DNA of 64,000 nt from Limisphaerales bacterium (lineage in GTDB: Bacteria; Verrucomicrobiota; Verrucomicrobiia; Limisphaerales; UBA1100): contig JACNJL010000015.1 of the NCBI GenBank assembly GCA_014382585.1, positions 1 to 64,000 on the forward strand, in the 5' to 3' direction. This document shows, piece after piece, positions 16,099 to 27,226 of the stretch. Every line of letters starts with the position of its first letter. Within the stretch, counting starts at the first letter, position 1. Below the pieces are notes generated by a model. It was not told where the DNA came from. It made no database searches and saw nothing but the letters and a program-made list of their open reading frames with translations. The position numbers and the translations under genes were made by a program.

Positions 16099-17220
16099 TC
16101 AATGGTCGCGTGAAAAATTGGCCGCCACTTCGGCAACGCCTTTGGCCAAATCTTGCCAATCATCCGCCGTCGTTTCCCAGCCGCTACTGAAACGCACCAC
16201 GCGATCGGTGTCCGCTGCCGCCAATCCCATCGCCGTGAGCACGTGGCTCGGGGCTTCCTTGCCGCTGGCGCAGGCGCTGCCGGTGGACACTGCAAAGCCC
16301 GCCTTGTCCAGCTTCACCACCCAGCGCGCCCGGCAATCGCCCGGCAATAGCGCGGATACCGTGTTCCAAAGACGCCCTTCACCCGCGCCTAAAACCCGAG
16401 CATCGCCAAGGCTCGCCACAAATGCATTCCGCCAAGCTTCCCTCTCAATAATCGTGTCCTCCGCCAAAGCAGTTTCGCGCTCGGTCAGCGCCGCCATCAT
16501 CGAGAGCACGCCGGCGACATTCTCCGTGCCCGCACGCCGCCCTTCCTCCTGCGGCCCGCCGACCAATTGCGGCCGCACCGCACCCGCCGACGGGCACTTC
16601 AAAAAACCCACACCCATCGGGCCGCCGAACTTGTGCGCGCACCCACTCACAAAATCGCATTCACCCAAACCCGCCGATGGCAATTTGCCAATCCATTGCG
16701 CCGCATCGCAAAAAAACGGAATGCCGTATTCCGCGCAAAGCTCCCGCGCTTCACGCCATGGCTGCAGCACGCCGGTTTCATTATTCGCCGCCATCATCGC
16801 GATGAGCCCGGGCCGCTGCTTCACCAATCGTTCGCGCAACGCTTCCAAATCCAAAACGCCGGATTCTGTCACCGACAGCGTTTTCAACCGGCCGTCAAAT
16901 TGTAATTTCGCGGCCTCCAACACACACGGATGCTCAATTGCTGAAACCCAAACCTCAGCCTCCACCCCCAGCGTTTCCGCAAAATGATGCATCACCAAAT
17001 TGGCGGATTCCGTTGCGCCCGAAGTCCAAACAAGATCCATCGCCCTACACCCCAAAAAATTCGCCAACGCCTCCCGCGCATCCGCCAACGCTTTCTCCGC
17101 CCGCGCCCCCAACCGATGCGGGCTGGAAGGGTTCCCGATAAACCGCCTACTCGCCTCCAGCCACGCCTCACGCGCGGCCGCGCTCAGTGGCGTAGTAGCA
17201 TTATGGTCGAAGATAATCAT
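16099..17220 (-). CDS. Cysteine desulfurase (NifS/IscS class V aminotransferase family)
   Basis: 373 aa. A PLP enzyme that takes sulfur from cysteine for Fe-S clusters and thiolated cofactors. N-terminal IFDHNATTPL, PLP-contact SGATESAN and NNETG, Schiff-base lysine in GCAHKFGGP (K197), and a C-terminal TGSACASG with the persulfide-carrying cysteine. The NifS/IscS split cannot be settled from sequence alone. It is divergently transcribed from the Fe-S/lipoyl cluster starting at 17310, with only 89 nt between, which suggests a functional and perhaps regulatory link. No iscU/sufBCD in the window. Confidence 0.9.
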   Translation of the reverse strand: MIIFDHNATTPLSAAAREAWLEASRRFIGNPSSPHRLGARAEKALADAREALANFLGCRAMDLVWTSGATESANLVMHHFAETLGVEAEVWVSAIEHPCVLEAAKLQFDGRLKTLSVTESGVLDLEALRERLVKQRPGLIAMMAANNETGVLQPWREARELCAEYGIPFFCDAAQWIGKLPSAGLGECDFVSGCAHKFGGPMGVGFLKCPSAGAVRPQLVGGPQEEGRRAGTENVAGVLSMMAALTERETALAEDTIIEREAWRNAFVASLGDARVLGAGEGRLWNTVSALLPGDCRARWVVKLDKAGFAVSTGSACASGKEAPSHVLTAMGLAAADTDRVVRFSSGWETTADDWQDLAKGVAEVAANFSRDH

Positions 17221-17309: not shown

Positions 17310-17774
17310 ATGGCTCCGGAAAACAAAACTCTGCTGTTCAAGCGCGTCCATTTTGCAACGCGTTTGCCGGTGGACTGTGTTTACAGCCCATCGCATTTCT
17401 GGGCGCGGGAAACGGGTGAGGGCGTGTGGCGCGTGGGATTTACAAAATTTGCCACGCGGATGCTCGGTGAAATGGTGGACCACGGTTTCGAGGTGAAGGC
17501 CGGTGCGCCGATTGAGCCGGGGCAAATTCTTGGATGGGTCGAGGGCTTCAAGGCGATCTCGGATGTGTATGGATTTTGCGCGGGGGAATTGATTGGCACC
17601 AACCCCGCGCTGCAAACCAACATCGCGCTCATTAACAAAAAGCCTTACGCCAACGGCTGGCTTTATGAGGCACGCGGCACGCTCGATAACAAATGCGTGG
17701 ACGCCGAGGGCTACGCCGCTATCCTCAACCAAACCATCGACAAAATGCTCGAGCAACAAAAGGCAGGCGAATGA
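17310..17774 (+). CDS. GcvH-like lipoyl carrier protein
   Basis: 154 aa from the ATG at 17310; an upstream TTG at 17271 is less likely. Lipoyl-domain core: GEGVWRVGFTKFATRMLGEM, then GWVEGFKAISDVYGFCAGEL, where K81 occupies the lipoylated-lysine position, then PYANGWLYEA. Longer than a standard GcvH (~130 aa). No gcvT, gcvP or lipoate ligase is nearby; instead it heads a cluster with Fe-S and prenyl genes, like the GcvH-like lipoate-binding proteins that serve Hdr-like systems instead of glycine cleavage. Its stop overlaps the start of the next gene (ATGA). Confidence 0.82.
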   Translation: MAPENKTLLFKRVHFATRLPVDCVYSPSHFWARETGEGVWRVGFTKFATRMLGEMVDHGFEVKAGAPIEPGQILGWVEGFKAISDVYGFCAGELIGTNPALQTNIALINKKPYANGWLYEARGTLDNKCVDAEGYAAILNQTIDKMLEQQKAGE

Positions 17775-18889
17775 GCCGCGCGCGCTACATTATGATTGGC
17801 GGATTCCTCGGTGCGGGGAAAACCACCAGCGTGGCTGCGCTGGCGCAGCATTTAACTGACGCCAGCCGCACCGTCGGCCTCATCACCAATGACCAAGGCC
17901 GCGAGCTGGTCGATACCGCGATGCTGCGTGCGAAGGGGTTTGCGACAGAGGAAATTCCCGGCGGCTGTTTTTGTTGCCGGTTCAATTCACTCGTCGATGC
18001 CGCCGCCAAACTCACCGAAAGCACCCGGCCGGATGTATTCATCGCCGAACCCGTCGGCAGTTGCACCGATTTAGTGGCCACGGTCACTTATCCGTTGAGC
18101 CGAATTTATGGTGATGAATTCAGCATCGCGCCGTTGAGCGTTTTGGTGGACCCCATCCGCGCCTCGCGTATTTTCGGCCTCAATCGTTTCAAAGAAGGTG
18201 GCCAGTTTTCTGAAAAGGTCATTTACATTTACCGCAAACAACTCGAGGAAGCCGACCTCATCGTCATCAACAAAACCGATCTGCTCGAGCCGGACACACT
18301 CGTTGCGCTCACCAAAAAACTCACCGAAGAATTCCCCAACGCCGAAGTCCTTCACATCTCCGCCCGCACTGGCGAGGGCTTGGAGGAATGGTTCGCCCGC
18401 ATCACCGACGCCGAGCAAATTGCCCGCGCCGTGATGGAAGTGGACTACGAACGCTACGCCGAAGGCGAAGCTCTGCTCGGCTGGCTCAACGCCACCGTGC
18501 AGCTCCGCGCGACCGACTCCTTCGAAGCCCAGTCCGTGCTGCAACAATTCGCGGCGGACATCCAAAGGCAACTCAGCAAAGCCTCAGCCGAAATCGCCCA
18601 CCTCAAAATGACCCTCAGCCCCGATGCGAGCCTCGATGGCCAAGTCGCCATCATCAACCTCGTCCGCAATGATTTCGTCCCCGAACTCTCCGCTGACCTC
18701 GATGCCCCCATCGACAGCGCCCAACTCATCATCAACCTCCGCGCCGAAGCCGACCCCAACACACTAAAAGCCGCTGTCGAAACCGCCCTCACCAACGCCC
18801 CAAAAACCCTCACCGCCACCCTCGACCATCTCGAACACTTCCGCCCCGGCAAACCCGAACCCACGCATCGCATCACCGACCTCACCTGA
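17771..18889 (+). CDS. CobW/COG0523-family metallochaperone GTPase
   Basis: 372 aa. G3E GTPase: Walker A GGFLGAGKTT (about 9-19), the metal-binding GGCFCC motif (CxCC, about 59-63), and NKTD for guanine recognition. The C-terminal region is longer than in ZnuA-linked members and has no His-rich stretch. It is expected to deliver a metal or help mature a metalloenzyme using GTP. The ATG overlaps the GcvH-like stop, so translation is probably coupled; its role should serve this cluster. Confidence 0.88.
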   Translation: MSRARYIMIGGFLGAGKTTSVAALAQHLTDASRTVGLITNDQGRELVDTAMLRAKGFATEEIPGGCFCCRFNSLVDAAAKLTESTRPDVFIAEPVGSCTDLVATVTYPLSRIYGDEFSIAPLSVLVDPIRASRIFGLNRFKEGGQFSEKVIYIYRKQLEEADLIVINKTDLLEPDTLVALTKKLTEEFPNAEVLHISARTGEGLEEWFARITDAEQIARAVMEVDYERYAEGEALLGWLNATVQLRATDSFEAQSVLQQFAADIQRQLSKASAEIAHLKMTLSPDASLDGQVAIINLVRNDFVPELSADLDAPIDSAQLIINLRAEADPNTLKAAVETALTNAPKTLTATLDHLEHFRPGKPEPTHRITDLT

Positions 18890-18936
18890 CTTCCGCATTG
18901 GCAAAACCGCGACACCCCCGTACCCTCCCCGCATTC

Positions 18937-19332
18937 ATGGCTGACAAACCGCGTATTCTTTTCTGCCATTGCAACTACGCTCAAGTGGTGCCGGATGAGG
19001 TGAAAACCGGAGTACTGCAGTCGCTTTGCAAATCGGGGCAAGCCTTCGAGGCGGTGGCGGATTTGTGCGAGATGGCGGCGCGGCGTGATCCCGCGCTAAA
19101 GCGATTGGCGGCCGGGGATGAGCCGGTGAAAATTGCAGCGTGTTATCCGCGCGCCGTGAAATGGCTTTTCGGCGGTTGCCAGGCACCCCTGAATGCCGGA
19201 CGCACGGAGGTGGTAAATATGCGCGAACTGTCCGTCGAAGACGCAGCGGCCGCGATGCTCGATGAAACGGTGACGCCGAATTTGCCTGAAGATGGCTCGG
19301 TGGCGGCGGTGGAAGGTGAGAAAAAAATTTAA
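18937..19332 (+). CDS. Small cysteine-rich protein resembling the HdrA N-terminal domain
   Basis: 131 aa from ATG 18937. Six cysteines (10, 12, 31, 44, 69, 81). The start ILFCHCN and the later KIAACYPRAVKWLF...EVVNMREL parallel the HdrA N-terminal pattern (V.VCHCG ... VVAACSPR ... ANIRE), but the FAD-binding and ferredoxin parts of HdrA are absent. That resemblance is my reading by eye. It probably carries an Fe-S cluster or reactive thiols. The stop is 2 nt before the ferredoxin start, so the two are certainly one operon. Confidence 0.62.
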   Translation: MADKPRILFCHCNYAQVVPDEVKTGVLQSLCKSGQAFEAVADLCEMAARRDPALKRLAAGDEPVKIAACYPRAVKWLFGGCQAPLNAGRTEVVNMRELSVEDAAAAMLDETVTPNLPEDGSVAAVEGEKKI

Positions 19333-19334
19333 CG

Positions 19335-20195
19335 ATGGCGATTGCTGACGAAACCACTTTGCGCATCGTCCTTTATGAGGGCGAGGGTGCGGCGACTTTG
19401 GATGCGGCGGAACGTGGCTCGACATTGACGGCGTTGTTAGGGAAGGGCTATGCGGTCACTTGCGCGGGCGAGGGCGCGGTGGCGCCGGCGGATGACAGCG
19501 CGCTGTTGGTGCTCGGGCGTTTTGAAAATGGCCAGGCACCGGAGGCGGAGGATGCCAACGGTAATGTTGCGATCCGGTTTCGCGATATTGATGGGCTCGA
19601 CTCGGAAGGCATCACGGCGTTGGTGGAGACGGAACGCGCGTCCTCCAATGCCGCGCAGCACGGCGAGTGGAAGCCTTGGTTTCCGGTCATCGATTACGAC
19701 CGCTGCACCAACTGCATGCAGTGTCTTTCGTTTTGTTTGTTCGATGTGTACGGCGTGGATGATGAGCAGGAAATCCAGGTACAGAACAACGACAACTGCA
19801 AAACCAACTGCCCCGCCTGCAGCCGCGTGTGCCCCGAGGCGGCCATCATGTTTCCGAAATACAAAAGCGGCCCCATCAATGGCGATGTGGTGAGCGATGG
19901 CGAACTCAATCGCGAGAAGATGAAAATCGACATCTCGGCGCTGCTTGGCGGGGATGTGTATCAAATGCTCCGCGACCGAAGCCAACGCTCGCGCAGTCGC
20001 TTCTCAAAGGAACGCAGCTCGGACAAAGCGCTCGGTGAACGCACCAAATGCCTCACCAAACTCGCCGCCGAAGCCGACATCGACATCCCGCTCGAAGTTT
20101 TGCAAAGCCTCCCCAGTGCCGATGAGATCGCCCAGAAATCCGCCGCCGCCAATGCTAAGGCGCAAGCGGTGCTTGATGCGCGGGAGTCTGGTTAA
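19335..20195 (+). CDS. 2[4Fe-4S] ferredoxin-domain protein
   Basis: 286 aa. The N-terminal ~100 residues form an unrecognised alpha/beta-like domain. Two cluster motifs follow: CTNCMQCLSFC (Cys 124, 127, 130, 134) and CKTNCPACSRVCP (155, 159, 162, 166); the second has an atypical first spacing. The C-terminus is charged and helical, with RSRSR and repeated Ala. No signal peptide, so a cytoplasmic electron carrier. It follows the HdrA-like gene by 2 nt, which suggests the two proteins pass electrons to each other. Confidence 0.85.
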   Translation: MAIADETTLRIVLYEGEGAATLDAAERGSTLTALLGKGYAVTCAGEGAVAPADDSALLVLGRFENGQAPEAEDANGNVAIRFRDIDGLDSEGITALVETERASSNAAQHGEWKPWFPVIDYDRCTNCMQCLSFCLFDVYGVDDEQEIQVQNNDNCKTNCPACSRVCPEAAIMFPKYKSGPINGDVVSDGELNREKMKIDISALLGGDVYQMLRDRSQRSRSRFSKERSSDKALGERTKCLTKLAAEADIDIPLEVLQSLPSADEIAQKSAAANAKAQAVLDARESG

Positions 20196-20285
20196 CTTCC
20201 TTGAAACATTCCGCTCGCATTGGCGTCTCACATTCGCGAAACTGCAGCACGCACAACGCCGCCGGTTTCGCCGGCATTTATTTGC

Positions 20286-22040
20286 ATGACCACCGCCAGC
20301 GCGCCATTGAAAATTCCTCGAGTCGTTCCGCAGCGAAAGCCGCGGACGCCGCGCGAGAATATCCCCCAAACCCGCGAGGAACGCGAAACCATCCTGCGCG
20401 AGGTGCGGCATTATGTGGCCGAGCAAACCCTCGTGCCACCGGTGCCGATGAACGACCTCAAAGTGCACGCGGACGAATTGGTCGCCGCGCTCGGCACCAA
20501 GGAAATTTACCGCGACTACATCGGCATCCTCATCAACAACGAACTCTGGCGCGAAACGCTCGCCGCCGTGCCCTTCGAACGCCGCCTGTTGATGGTTCCC
20601 AAATGCCTCCGCGTGGAAGCCAAGTGCCCCGCGCCTTTTGATGAGTTTGGGTTGCTTTGCAAAAGCTGCGGACTGTGCAGCATTCAGGATTTGGAATACG
20701 AGGCGGAGAAGCTCGGCTACGCGGCGCTCGTCGCCGAGGGCAGCGCAATCGTGATGAGCCTCATTCAAACCGGCAAGATTGACGCCATCGTCGGCGTGGC
20801 GTGCATCCCCGTGCTCGAGCGCGCGTTCCCGTACATGGAAGCGGCGGCCGTGCCGGGCGTGGCCATTCCGTTGCTGCAGGATGATTGCATCGACACCGCA
20901 GTCGATGAGGATTGGATTTGGGATTACATTTACCTCACCAGCGACGACCAAACGCGCCGGTTGGATTTGAGCGGGCTGCACGACGAAGTGGAAACGTGGT
21001 TCACACCCGAATCGCTCGCCGCCATTATGGGCGAGAGCGAAGGCGAAACCGAAGCCATCGGCCGCGCTTGGCTCGCGCGCGCCGGCAAACGCTGGCGGCC
21101 TTTCCTCAGCGTGGCGGCGTATCAAGCACTGCGCGATGATGCCACGGAATCCGTTTCCGATGACCTCAAAAAAATCGCCATTGCCGTCGAGTGTTTCCAC
21201 AAAGCCTCGCTCATCCACGACGACATCGAGGATGAAGACGCCGAACGTTACGGCGAAAAAACATTGCACGAAGAATACGGCCTCGCCGTGGCGCTCAACG
21301 TCGGCGATTTACTCATCGGCGAAGGCTACCGCCTCATCGGTGAAACGAAACTTTCCGCCGAACAACGCGCCGCGATGCTGCAAGTAGCCGCCAACGGCCA
21401 GCGCCATCTCTGCCGCGGCCAAGGCGCCGAACTGGTTTGGCAGCGCAATCCCGAGCCGCTCAAGTCCGTGCAGGTGCTCGAAATTTTCCGCCAAAAAACT
21501 GCGCCCGCATTTGAGGTTGCCCTCCGGCTCGGCTCCATTGCCGCCGACCTCGGCAAGTACGGGGAAGTTTCCGAAGTGCTCGGCGAGTACAGCAAAAACC
21601 TCGGCATCGCCTATCAAATCCGTGACGACCTCTCCGACCTCGGCGAGTCCGGCGACACCAACGACCTCGCCAGCCTGCGCCCCACACTGCTGCTCGCCGT
21701 CGCGCACGAAAAAGCCAAGGGCGAGCAAAAGGCGCAGCTCGCTGAAGTGTGGCGGCGGCAGTTGCCCGAGGGCGTCACCTTCGCGCAAATCGAGCAATGG
21801 TACCTCGACCTCAAAGCCGTGAAACGCGCCGAGGATTTGCAGCTCACTTACAAAGAACTGGCCATCCGTTCACTGACCGATCTGGAAAACGCCAACCTCA
21901 AAGGCCTTCTCCGCCGAGTGATCGGCAAAATTTTCAACGACACCGTCGTCAAAGGCTGGTGCAGCGAAGTCCAGGAAATCAGCGAACTGGAAAAAGTCCG
22001 CGCCCAAAACAGCAATGGCACGGCGACTGTGAGTCCCTGA
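20286..22040 (+). CDS. DUF116-polyprenyl synthase fusion protein
   Basis: 584 aa from ATG 20286 (frame open to TTG 20220). Residues ~40-215 look like DUF116: LLMVPKCLR (C107), C114, CKSCGLC (125/128/131), EGSAIVMSL and AIVGVACIPVLERA (C173). Residues ~255-560 are a trans-isoprenyl diphosphate synthase: GKRWRP for IPP binding, first Asp-rich motif DDIED (312-316) and second motif DDLSD (447-451). The enzyme half should build a prenyl diphosphate from IPP and an allylic primer. The cysteine-rich half suggests metal or Fe-S binding. The two halves in one chain, next to ferredoxin and HdrA-like genes, suggest redox-linked prenyl chemistry. Confidence 0.82.
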   Translation: MTTASAPLKIPRVVPQRKPRTPRENIPQTREERETILREVRHYVAEQTLVPPVPMNDLKVHADELVAALGTKEIYRDYIGILINNELWRETLAAVPFERRLLMVPKCLRVEAKCPAPFDEFGLLCKSCGLCSIQDLEYEAEKLGYAALVAEGSAIVMSLIQTGKIDAIVGVACIPVLERAFPYMEAAAVPGVAIPLLQDDCIDTAVDEDWIWDYIYLTSDDQTRRLDLSGLHDEVETWFTPESLAAIMGESEGETEAIGRAWLARAGKRWRPFLSVAAYQALRDDATESVSDDLKKIAIAVECFHKASLIHDDIEDEDAERYGEKTLHEEYGLAVALNVGDLLIGEGYRLIGETKLSAEQRAAMLQVAANGQRHLCRGQGAELVWQRNPEPLKSVQVLEIFRQKTAPAFEVALRLGSIAADLGKYGEVSEVLGEYSKNLGIAYQIRDDLSDLGESGDTNDLASLRPTLLLAVAHEKAKGEQKAQLAEVWRRQLPEGVTFAQIEQWYLDLKAVKRAEDLQLTYKELAIRSLTDLENANLKGLLRRVIGKIFNDTVVKGWCSEVQEISELEKVRAQNSNGTATVSP

Positions 22041-22080
22041 GGGGCTTGCCAAAATCCCCGGATTGCTTTACATTTTCAAT

Positions 22081-22209
22081 ATGAAGGCAGACCCCGTTGA
22101 AACCCCTTCCAAACCGGGGCCAGCAAAAATCGATAAAGCCAATGTGTGTACGGCGAAGAAGAAGGTCTTCGGCGAGCACGCCGACCTCATAAAGAAGCTC
22201 GCCAAGTAA
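22081..22209 (+). CDS. 42-aa small protein with a single cysteine
   Basis: ATG at 22081 to TAA at 22207-22209. The peptide starts MKADPVETPSKPGPAKI and ends HADLIKKLAK. It is Lys/Pro-rich, has one cysteine (C23, in NVCTAKKK) and no signal peptide or membrane helix. It sits 40 nt after the DUF116-prenyl synthase gene and 43 nt before the prenyltransferase-like gene, same strand. No clear SD. Reality is inferred from position and codon use similar to neighbours. It could be a substrate or small partner of the flanking enzymes, or a chance ORF. Confidence 0.5.
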   Translation: MKADPVETPSKPGPAKIDKANVCTAKKKVFGEHADLIKKLAK

Positions 22210-22252
22210 TGGACGAAGCTGAATCGGCGGAGACCTTGCGTAAACTTTTTGC

Positions 22253-23146
22253 ATGAGCCTCCGCCTCGAAATGCTGCAAGTGGCGCGTGTGGCGCCCAAG
22301 GTGCTCGGCGACGCCGCCGAACTCGTCCGCACCTTTCTCGCTTCCCAACAAAATCCGGATGGCGGGTTTCGTGATCGCGATGGCGAAAGCGATCTCTACT
22401 ACACCGTGTTCGGCCTGGACGCTCTGGCGGTGTTTCAGGCCGAGCCGAACATGGCCGCTGTCGAACAATTCCTCCTCACCCACGGCGAAGGCGATGGCCT
22501 TGATCTGGTGCACCTCAGTTGCCTCACGCGCTGTTGGGGCTCACTTGGAAAAGACCGCATGCCGAAAGGCTTGCGCGCGGCACTACTCAAACGACTCGAA
22601 GCCTTCCGCAAACCGTGTGGCGGTTGGGACAATAATCTGAAACGCGAATACGGCACCGCGTACGGTTCCTTTCTTGCCCTCGGGGCGTATCAGGACATGG
22701 GCAAGCTGCCGCCCAAGCCGCTGCGCATTTTGCAGAGCCTCAAAAAACTGGAGACGCCCGATCAAGCCTGGAACAATCATCCCAACCTCCCGGTCGGCTC
22801 CACCAACCCCACCGCCGGCGCCGTCGTACTGCTGAACAATTTGCACCTGCCCATCAACGCCGAGGTCGGCCAATGGCTGCGCGCGCGACTGCATCCGCAA
22901 GGCGGCTTCGTTGCCGTGCCCGGTGCTCCCATGCCTGACCTCCTCTCCACCGCTACCGCCCTCCACGCGCTGGCCGCGTTAGACGTGCGCCTCACCGAAG
23001 ACGAAACCGAACGCTGCTTGGATTTTGTGGACACCCTCTGGAATGCCACCGGCGGTTTCCACGGCCATTGGTCGGATGACTTTCTCGATTGCGAATATAC
23101 CTTCTACGGATTGCTCGCGCTGGGGCATTTGAAAATGAACGGGTGA
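22253..23146 (+). CDS. Prenyltransferase beta-subunit-like alpha/alpha-toroid protein
   Basis: 297 aa made of prenyltransferase/squalene-oxidase repeats: NPDGGFRDRDGESDLYYTVFGLDAL, CGGWDNN..EYGTAYGSFLALGAY, NPTAGAVVLLNNL, PQGGFVAVPGAPMPDLLSTATALHAL and a last unit ATGGFHGHW..DFLDCEYTFYGLLALG. It has the Gly-Gly-Phe/Trp turns and inner-helix pattern of protein farnesyl/geranylgeranyl transferase beta subunits, with candidate zinc ligands (Asp/Cys in LDCEYT; His nearby). No alpha subunit in the window. Closing gene of the cluster that contains the prenyl synthase, so it plausibly uses that product as substrate. It could instead be a terpene cyclase-like enzyme. Confidence 0.78.
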   Translation: MSLRLEMLQVARVAPKVLGDAAELVRTFLASQQNPDGGFRDRDGESDLYYTVFGLDALAVFQAEPNMAAVEQFLLTHGEGDGLDLVHLSCLTRCWGSLGKDRMPKGLRAALLKRLEAFRKPCGGWDNNLKREYGTAYGSFLALGAYQDMGKLPPKPLRILQSLKKLETPDQAWNNHPNLPVGSTNPTAGAVVLLNNLHLPINAEVGQWLRARLHPQGGFVAVPGAPMPDLLSTATALHALAALDVRLTEDETERCLDFVDTLWNATGGFHGHWSDDFLDCEYTFYGLLALGHLKMNG

Positions 23147-26356: not shown

Positions 26357-27226
26357 ATGACTCCAAACGAAACCATCACCGTTGCCGCCGAGGCGATGGC
26401 CACTCGCTTTGAGGTCGCCTTGCACGGTGCGCCCGAAGCCACATTGCGCGCGGCGGCAGAAGAAGCTCTGGCGGAAATCACACGGCTCGAGGCGATGCTC
26501 AGCCTCTACCGGCCCACCAGCGAAATCGCCCACCTCAATCAACGTGCCGCGTACGAGCCGGTGCGTGTGTCCGCCGAAGTCTTCGCATTGCTCGAACGCT
26601 GCGTGGAATTAAACCAACAAACCCAAGGCGCATTCGACATCACCCTCGCGCCATTGATGCGGTGCTGGCGGTTTATGAATGACACCGGCGCGGTGCCCAC
26701 CGACGATGCGATCGCCGAGGCGCTCGCTTGCACTGGAATGCAACGCCTCCAACTCAACCCCGATGACACCACCGTGCAATTTACGTGCGAAGGCGTGATG
26801 CTCGACTTGGGCTCCATCGGCAAAGGCTACGCGCTCGAACAAGCCGCCGCGTGGTTGCGTGAAAATGAATTTGAAAATTTTCTCATTCACGGCGGCACCA
26901 GCACCGTATGCGCACGCGGTGCCCAAGCCGATGACAGCCCGTGGCGTGTGGCGGTGGAAAACCCCGACGATAATCAACCTCCGCTGCACATCGTTGATTT
27001 GAAAAATGAATCGCTGTCCGTTTCTGGTATCGGCGGCAAATCATTCATCGATGCCGAAGGCATCGAGCAAGGCCACGTCATCAATCCCCGCACCGGCCGC
27101 CCCTCCCAAGCCGCACGCGTGGCCGCGGTGGTGTGCGAACCCGCCACCGAAAGCGACGCGTGGGCAACTGCGTTTTTGGTGGACCCGAAGTTGGAAGTGC
27201 CGGAGGGGATGCGGGTTTTGAGGTAG
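26357..27226 (+). CDS. apbE: ApbE-family FAD:protein FMN transferase
   Basis: 289 aa. It attaches FMN covalently to Thr/Ser of target flavoproteins (such as NqrB/C or RnfG) using FAD and Mg. Seen: AMATRFEVALHG, TLAPLMRCWRF, LDLGSIGKGYALEQAA, GGTSTVCARG, and the GHVINPRTGRPS motif. The usual lipoprotein signal is absent: the protein starts directly at MTPNETITV, so it may be cytoplasmic. Start at 26357; the C-terminus overlaps the start of a dispersed repeat. No NQR/RNF operon in the window. Confidence 0.9.
   Translation: MTPNETITVAAEAMATRFEVALHGAPEATLRAAAEEALAEITRLEAMLSLYRPTSEIAHLNQRAAYEPVRVSAEVFALLERCVELNQQTQGAFDITLAPLMRCWRFMNDTGAVPTDDAIAEALACTGMQRLQLNPDDTTVQFTCEGVMLDLGSIGKGYALEQAAAWLRENEFENFLIHGGTSTVCARGAQADDSPWRVAVENPDDNQPPLHIVDLKNESLSVSGIGGKSFIDAEGIEQGHVINPRTGRPSQAARVAAVVCEPATESDAWATAFLVDPKLEVPEGMRVLR

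Follow-up and report, generated by a model that had tools for sequence, protein, structure and literature searches.

Several described systems share parts with the locus examined here. Hopanoid biosynthesis (HpnC/HpnD/HpnE, squalene-hopene cyclase (SHC), HpnH) joins a class II cyclase bearing a DxDDT motif to a radical S-adenosylmethionine (SAM) enzyme, and drimenyl and copalyl diphosphate synthases, class II cyclases acting on prenyl diphosphates, combine a polyprenyl diphosphate synthase with a DxDD-type cyclase and need no squalene. In the Bacillus sesquarterpene pathway (HepST, YtpB, SqhC), an SHC-family cyclase stands at the end of a long regular prenyl diphosphate route. The sulfur-oxidizing Hdr-like (sHdr) system with lipoate-binding proteins (LbpA) pairs a GcvH-like lipoyl carrier with a neighboring HdrA-related protein (PMC6067878). 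DUF116 proteins (arCOG02078) hold conserved Cys residues with CxxCxxC and have been suggested to act as flavodoxin-like domains in Fe-S electron transfer, and a polyprenyl synthetase fusion to DUF116 is mentioned for Pirellula staleyi Psta_0175; the same paper names neither a terpenoid pathway nor partner genes for DUF116 (PMC5898192). Here, we describe a locus with such a fusion at positions 17310-23146 of a 64,000-nt stretch (the window) of contig JACNJL010000015.1 (assembly GCA_014382585.1) from a Limisphaerales bacterium. It belongs to a gene set common to at least seven bacterial phyla, which we read, with modest confidence, as a multi-gene route that converts a long-chain polyprenyl diphosphate of the regular (head-to-tail) type into a polycyclic isoprenoid lipid, squalene probably not being an obligatory intermediate.

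Results

Seven open reading frames (ORFs), all on the + strand, make up the locus, and a cysteine desulfurase gene diverges from them. Adjacent genes overlap by at most 4 nt or lie up to 90 nt apart, except for one 212-nt gap before the toroid gene. An earlier note on this DNA had listed these genes, and ORF and domain analysis established that they are real and correctly placed, the divergence of the desulfurase included; Pfam gave firm domain calls for GcvH, CobW, ferredoxin, DUF116, polyprenyl synthase, toroid, and desulfurase. The features, with two genes on other contigs of the same genome, are as follows:

16099..17220, - strand: cysteine desulfurase (NifS/IscS-like; PF00266), divergent neighbor 89 nt away; add-on
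17310..17774, + strand: GcvH-like carrier (GcvHL; PF01597); lineage-specific add-on
17771..18889, + strand: CobW-type GTPase (CobWL; PF02492), COG0523-like metallochaperone with a GCFCC motif; add-on
18937..19332, + strand: HdrA-N-terminus-like Fe-S domain (HdrAN), invariant Cys; core
19335..20195, + strand: 2[4Fe-4S] ferredoxin (Fdx), Fer4 domains; core
20286..22040, + strand: DUF116-polyprenyl diphosphate synthase fusion (PF01976 + PF00348); core
22081..22209, + strand: 42-aa ORF, non-conserved insert; outside the system
22253..23146, + strand: alpha-alpha toroid protein, protein-prenyltransferase beta fold, zinc site incomplete (PF00432); core
C10:14764-15951, other contig: radical SAM gene (rSAM); core
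C23:42482-44248, other contig: SHC-like cyclase gene; core

Because the rSAM and cyclase genes lie on other contigs, the window holds the larger part, but not all, of a five-part core plus add-ons, and these two genes outside it say most about the chemistry.

We searched 80 genomes, many of them drafts, with family profiles, 67 carrying the fusion and 13 being Verrucomicrobiota without it (controls). The order desulfurase-GcvHL-CobWL-HdrAN-Fdx-rSAM-fusion-toroid-cyclase is found in two Acidobacteria (L096, L107) and in KSB1 (L087); a planctomycete (L095) has GcvHL-CobWL-desulfurase-rSAM-HdrAN-Fdx-fusion-toroid and then the cyclase, and a member of Lentisphaerales (L097) has the same order with the cyclase on another contig. 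Bacteroidota (L110, L112, L113), Riflebacteria (L111), and L108 encode a fused HdrAN-Fdx, rSAM, fusion, toroid, and cyclase. These orders in distant phyla define the core as HdrAN-Fdx, rSAM, fusion, toroid, and cyclase, with GcvHL, CobWL, and the desulfurase as add-ons that are absent from Bacteroidota and Riflebacteria; comparison of the neighbors of the core in four loci revealed no additional shared gene. Among the 67 fusion-bearing genomes, the ferredoxin is present in 66, the toroid in 64, the cyclase in 64 (some cut by contig ends), HdrAN, separate or fused, in 59, rSAM in 58, CobWL in 49, and GcvHL in 44, and none of the seven occurs in any control, two of which hold ordinary SHCs (~75 bits). 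Co-occurrence of Fdx, toroid, cyclase, and rSAM with the fusion gave Fisher p values of 1e-9 to 1e-14, relatedness being ignored. Even within one family (f20), two genomes (G076, G100) hold the core and a third (G025) holds none of it. The earlier note had treated the redox and prenyl genes as one functional unit and had named scattering in relatives as a point that would count against this. The recurrence of the same order in other phyla points to more than chance; in many Verrucomicrobiales, the genes are indeed scattered, yet they still co-occur, with toroid and cyclase mostly adjacent and HdrAN remaining with the ferredoxin. The core and its partner genes thus very probably function together. 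At four loci (L040, L042, L043, L044), the ferredoxin and fusion genes lie ~5-7 kb apart, with 804-aa and 831-aa ORFs between them.

The fusion protein matches PF01976 (E 5e-34) and PF00348 (E 1e-42), with the DUF116 domain at ~20484-20927 and the synthase domain at ~21066-21761. Seven Cys residues of the DUF116 half are invariant in an alignment of 25 relatives. Its structure model (pLDDT 86.7) agrees with a Rossmann-like fold; Foldseek returned no match at E<=0.001, and VIA-align gave Z <=5.5 to many unrelated Rossmann-like folds, so that the fold was left without assignment. The synthase half keeps both Asp motifs of trans-polyprenyl diphosphate synthases, DDIED and DDxxD (D310-D314 and D445-D449), again invariant in 25 relatives. 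Five residues ahead of the first Asp motif, Ala is invariant; the long-chain-type enzyme 3oyr likewise has Ala there, and the farnesyl and geranylgeranyl diphosphate (FPP/GGPP) synthases 1wy0, 5jfq, and 1rqj have Tyr or Phe. Ala at this position points to chains longer than C20, and such a product is weakly predicted for the fusion.

The cyclase, ~600 aa in other phyla, is encoded there directly after the toroid gene, and the protein of this genome (C23) shares 57% identity with an Acidobacteria protein. Its DADDT motif (PDADDT), a form of DxDDT, is invariant in 15 of 15 members. The closest solved relative is the Alicyclobacillus SHC (138 bits); compared with drimenyl (67 bits) or copalyl-type enzymes (45 and 39 bits to the bacterial class II diterpene cyclases 6vpt and 5bp8), the cyclase is nearer to SHC, which sets it apart from the drimenyl/copalyl diphosphate synthases. 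In a tree comprising 15 members and 11 SHCs of the ordinary type, it formed a clade separate from the ordinary hopanoid SHCs (100/100) and on a long branch (the program warned of long branches), and the surroundings of the motif also separate the two groups (GWAWTDLPGGVPDADDT versus GW-FE--N--YPD-DDT). In one genome (G098), two contigs (C90 and C61) each carry a strong copy of the SHC-like cyclase, and a deeply branching group of SHC-family proteins lacking the DxDDT motif (L148, L149, L150) occurs in genomes that have the DADDT cyclase as well.

Squalene, phytoene, HpnC, and HpnD enzymes are all covered by PF00494. No match to this family was present in 17 of the 55 genomes having all five core parts, including the isolates Labilibacter sediminis and Plebeiobacterium marinum, which indicates that squalene from the known route is not required. 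Moreover, none of the 67 fusion-bearing genomes has a squalene or phytoene synthase gene closer than 6 kb to its toroid or cyclase gene, so that the synthase and toroid genes are not found with carotenoid or hopanoid genes; the earlier note had considered such an association, with the redox genes lying apart, damaging to its scheme. At least some of the hosts are likely to bypass squalene. A hopanoid-like branch, in which HpnD/HpnC-type squalene would be turned into an unusual triterpene by the SHC-like enzyme and the Fe-S proteins would tailor the product, appears rather unlikely. The affinity of the cyclase to SHC speaks for it, as do, in this genome, HpnD (above cut-off) and another member of the squalene-synthase family encoded ~8 kb from the cyclase, and, in 16 genomes, an HpnD-like gene adjoining GcvHL; on these last two grounds, squalene could enter in the Verrucomicrobia lineage. 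Such a branch is nevertheless hard to reconcile with the 17 full-core genomes devoid of any member of the family, with a core that includes its own dedicated polyprenyl synthase, whose pocket is predicted to be of the long-chain type, and with two Acidobacteria (L096, L107) in which the gene set coexists with an ordinary SHC and an HpnC/HpnD-like pair encoded on another contig. An ordinary hopanoid cluster as the sole reading was rejected because of the separate cyclase clade, the hosts without PF00494, and this coexistence; the gene set further departs from hopanoid biosynthesis in its additional DUF116-synthase fusion, ferredoxin, and toroid, in squalene synthases not being obligatory, and in its rSAM, which scores far under the HpnH cut-off.

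HdrAN alone gave a weak profile match to the HdrA model (E 0.016) and no match to solved structures; C10, C12, C44, and C69 are invariant in 17 relatives, and it is on these four Cys residues that the weak likeness of 18937-19332 to HdrA rests. In Bacteroidota, Riflebacteria, and some others, HdrAN is fused to the ferredoxin in one ORF, and these proteins (~235-300 aa) consist only of the N-domain and the ferredoxin, the intervening FAD-binding domain of HdrA being absent. In the window, the ferredoxin gene starts 2 nt after the HdrAN gene, and eight Cys residues of the ferredoxin are invariant in 22 relatives. The rSAM protein (~400 aa in other phyla) is usually encoded there between the ferredoxin and fusion genes; that of this genome (C10) is 37% identical to a Lentisphaerales protein. 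Its CX3CX2C motif (C72, C76, C79) is invariant in 16 members, with three more invariant Cys residues, and it scores 42-48 bits against HpnH, the adenosyl-hopene transferase (TIGR03470, cut-off 225). The rSAM profile matches the archaeal tail-joining enzyme GDGT-MAS weakly (28 bits), which would agree with rSAM and DUF116 standing in for squalene synthase by reductively joining two prenyl chains into a squalene-like hydrocarbon for the cyclase. This idea, which would account for both the missing squalene synthase and the ferredoxin, strikes us as quite improbable, as radical SAM enzymes that modify peptides or catalyze decarboxylation give better matches than GDGT-MAS does, and the rSAM gene is retained in genomes that have squalene synthases.

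GcvHL matches PF01597 above the Pfam cut-off (72 bits) and stays below that of the GcvH equivalog TIGR00527 (69 bits; cut-off 115.9); its lipoyl-lysine, K81 in an EGFKA motif, a hallmark of the glycine cleavage H protein, is invariant in 13 relatives. The earlier note had seen no glycine cleavage genes, which holds locally and fails genome-wide, as an ordinary GcvH is encoded on contig C28. The GcvHL gene overlaps that of CobWL by 4 nt, and C66, C68, and C69 of CobWL are invariant. The desulfurase of the window scores 244 bits against TIGR03402, under its cut-off, and a desulfurase of a different subfamily adjoins GcvHL/CobWL in L087, L088, L095, L096, L097, and L107. In the scheme first proposed for this locus, electrons from the ferredoxin/HdrA-like pair reach a prenyl-modifying step by way of the lipoyl carrier. 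The invariant lipoyl-lysine and the presence of the carrier gene inside the cluster in several phyla are in keeping with it, but 23 of the 67 genomes with the fusion lack GcvHL, and among these are Bacteroidota and Riflebacteria in which the five-part core is complete. This indicates that the carrier is dispensable for the core chemistry; it does not survive as an obligatory electron path, and the scheme as a whole is very doubtful. Its comparison with sulfur oxidation by sHdr also did not hold. LbpA proteins have two strictly conserved Cys residues that are absent from GcvH (PMC6067878), whereas no Cys is found among the invariant or nearly invariant GcvHL columns (13 relatives), which excludes GcvHL from sHdr/LbpA; HdrB and HdrC are lacking at these loci, and none of the annotated clusters has hdrC1B1A-hyp-hdrC2B2 neighbors (whole genomes were not searched). 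In Akkermansiaceae-type genomes (L129, L130, L131), lepA, a second gene (~400 aa), HpnD, and GcvHL follow one another, with CobWL in L131 as well.

The toroid protein yielded a confident structure model (pLDDT 96.5) with the protein prenyltransferase beta fold (Z 26 to the beta subunit of Rab geranylgeranyltransferase (RabGGTase); root mean square deviation 2.6 over 265 residues). Of the zinc ligands Asp, Cys, and His, only the Asp is kept (D229); an invariant Leu (L231) takes the position of Cys240, and the His position is, by eye, an invariant Tyr. In 39 genomes, the toroid gene lies <=6 kb from the cyclase gene, mostly <60 nt apart. Because the cyclase is its common neighbor, a prenyl-binding or cyclase-assisting role would be more likely than protein prenylation. 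Prenylation by the toroid of a small Cys protein, be it the 42-aa ORF with its single Cys or another, would suit the fold and can be nearly dismissed, given the Leu in place of Cys240, the lack of an alpha-subunit gene nearby, the cyclase as usual partner, and the non-conservation of the 42-aa ORF, which largely refutes the idea for that ORF; a zinc protein prenyltransferase was accordingly rejected despite the fitting fold. The earlier note had counted the 42-aa ORF as a cluster member, a view we abandon, as even relatives whose synthase is 93-97% identical do not conserve it, which rules it out both as a pathway member and as a prenylation substrate. In nine close relatives, the gap between fusion and toroid genes is short and empty in six, holds antitoxin-like and Doc-like genes in L034 and L035, and holds the antitoxin alone in L036. 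Comparison of translations showed that the tail of the 42-aa ORF resembles that of the antitoxin, and the ORF is best read as probable debris of such an insert. The antitoxin/Doc-like pair (GNKRTG motif) lies at 11740-12345 in L034 and 6420-6970 in L035, and is decayed or partial at 11740-11990 in L036 and perhaps at 22081-22209 of the window.

Discussion

The gene set had no description that we could find in open-access literature (subscription journals and preprints lay outside the search), where only the DUF116-synthase fusion appears, without function. This bears out the earlier statement that no described system has this content. A terpenoid pathway whose gene set stays the same across at least seven phyla appears undescribed; it gives DUF116 a concrete pathway context. 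Our preferred reading, the route from a regular polyprenyl diphosphate, probably ends in a cyclized isoprenoid. The synthase half of the fusion, its catalytic motifs intact, would make the chain, presumably longer than C20. Low-potential electrons may then pass from the HdrAN/ferredoxin protein to rSAM and the DUF116 half, two Fe-S enzymes that could reductively modify the chain, for example by diphosphate removal, saturation, or coupling; the nature and order of these Fe-S steps are speculative. The DADDT motif of the SHC-like cyclase would protonate the far end of the chain so that rings form, and the toroid, usually encoded beside the cyclase, may bind or present the prenyl substrate. In PVC (Planctomycetes-Verrucomicrobia-Chlamydiae) bacteria, Acidobacteria, and KSB1, GcvHL, CobWL, and the desulfurase probably supply sulfur or metal to the Fe-S enzymes; alternatively, the add-ons might serve as a local dithiol electron carrier. 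The Bacillus sesquarterpene pathway differs in that no YtpB-type gene was seen at these loci and in the Fe-S partners present here. A class II cyclase tied to Fe-S and radical SAM chemistry, seemingly free of squalene, widens the range of polycyclic lipids that bacteria may make without oxygen.

Several points weigh against this reading. Which product forms and in which order the steps run is inferred, as is, from its fold and adjacency, the role of the toroid; the chain length is a weak prediction from one residue, and DUF116 has no confident structural match. Squalene-synthase-family genes are also present in most fusion-bearing Verrucomicrobia, where the HpnD-like neighbor of GcvHL suggests that squalene may enter. 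Nine of the 67 fusion-bearing genomes, many of these being fragmented drafts, lack rSAM; every control belongs to Verrucomicrobiota, and the genomes are not independent.

Tricyclic terpanes are fossil lipids called orphan biomarkers since their precise source is unknown (PMC9247107), and tricyclohexaprenol, a regular C30 compound, has been proposed as their bacterial precursor (PMC9247107, PMC10319793). For these reasons, we name them as a candidate product class, and the gene set offers a gene-level candidate for their biological source. In its full form, this proposal holds that the route is independent of squalene and oxygen, that Fe-S and radical SAM enzymes ready a regular chain for the SHC-like cyclase, that the product is a tricyclopolyprenol-type lipid, and that the hosts are the source of tricyclic terpanes; taken together, this is an unlikely, tentative extension.

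Two further observations concern neighboring genes. An ApbE-like ORF, recognized by eye, lies at 26357-27226 of the window, ~3 kb downstream of the toroid gene. Downstream of the cyclase in Bacteroidota and Riflebacteria (L110, L111, L112, L113) are genes for pyrroloquinoline quinone (PQQ)-type beta-propeller proteins, a four-cluster ferredoxin with a leader resembling those of twin-arginine translocation (Tat), and a NapH/NosR-like membrane protein.

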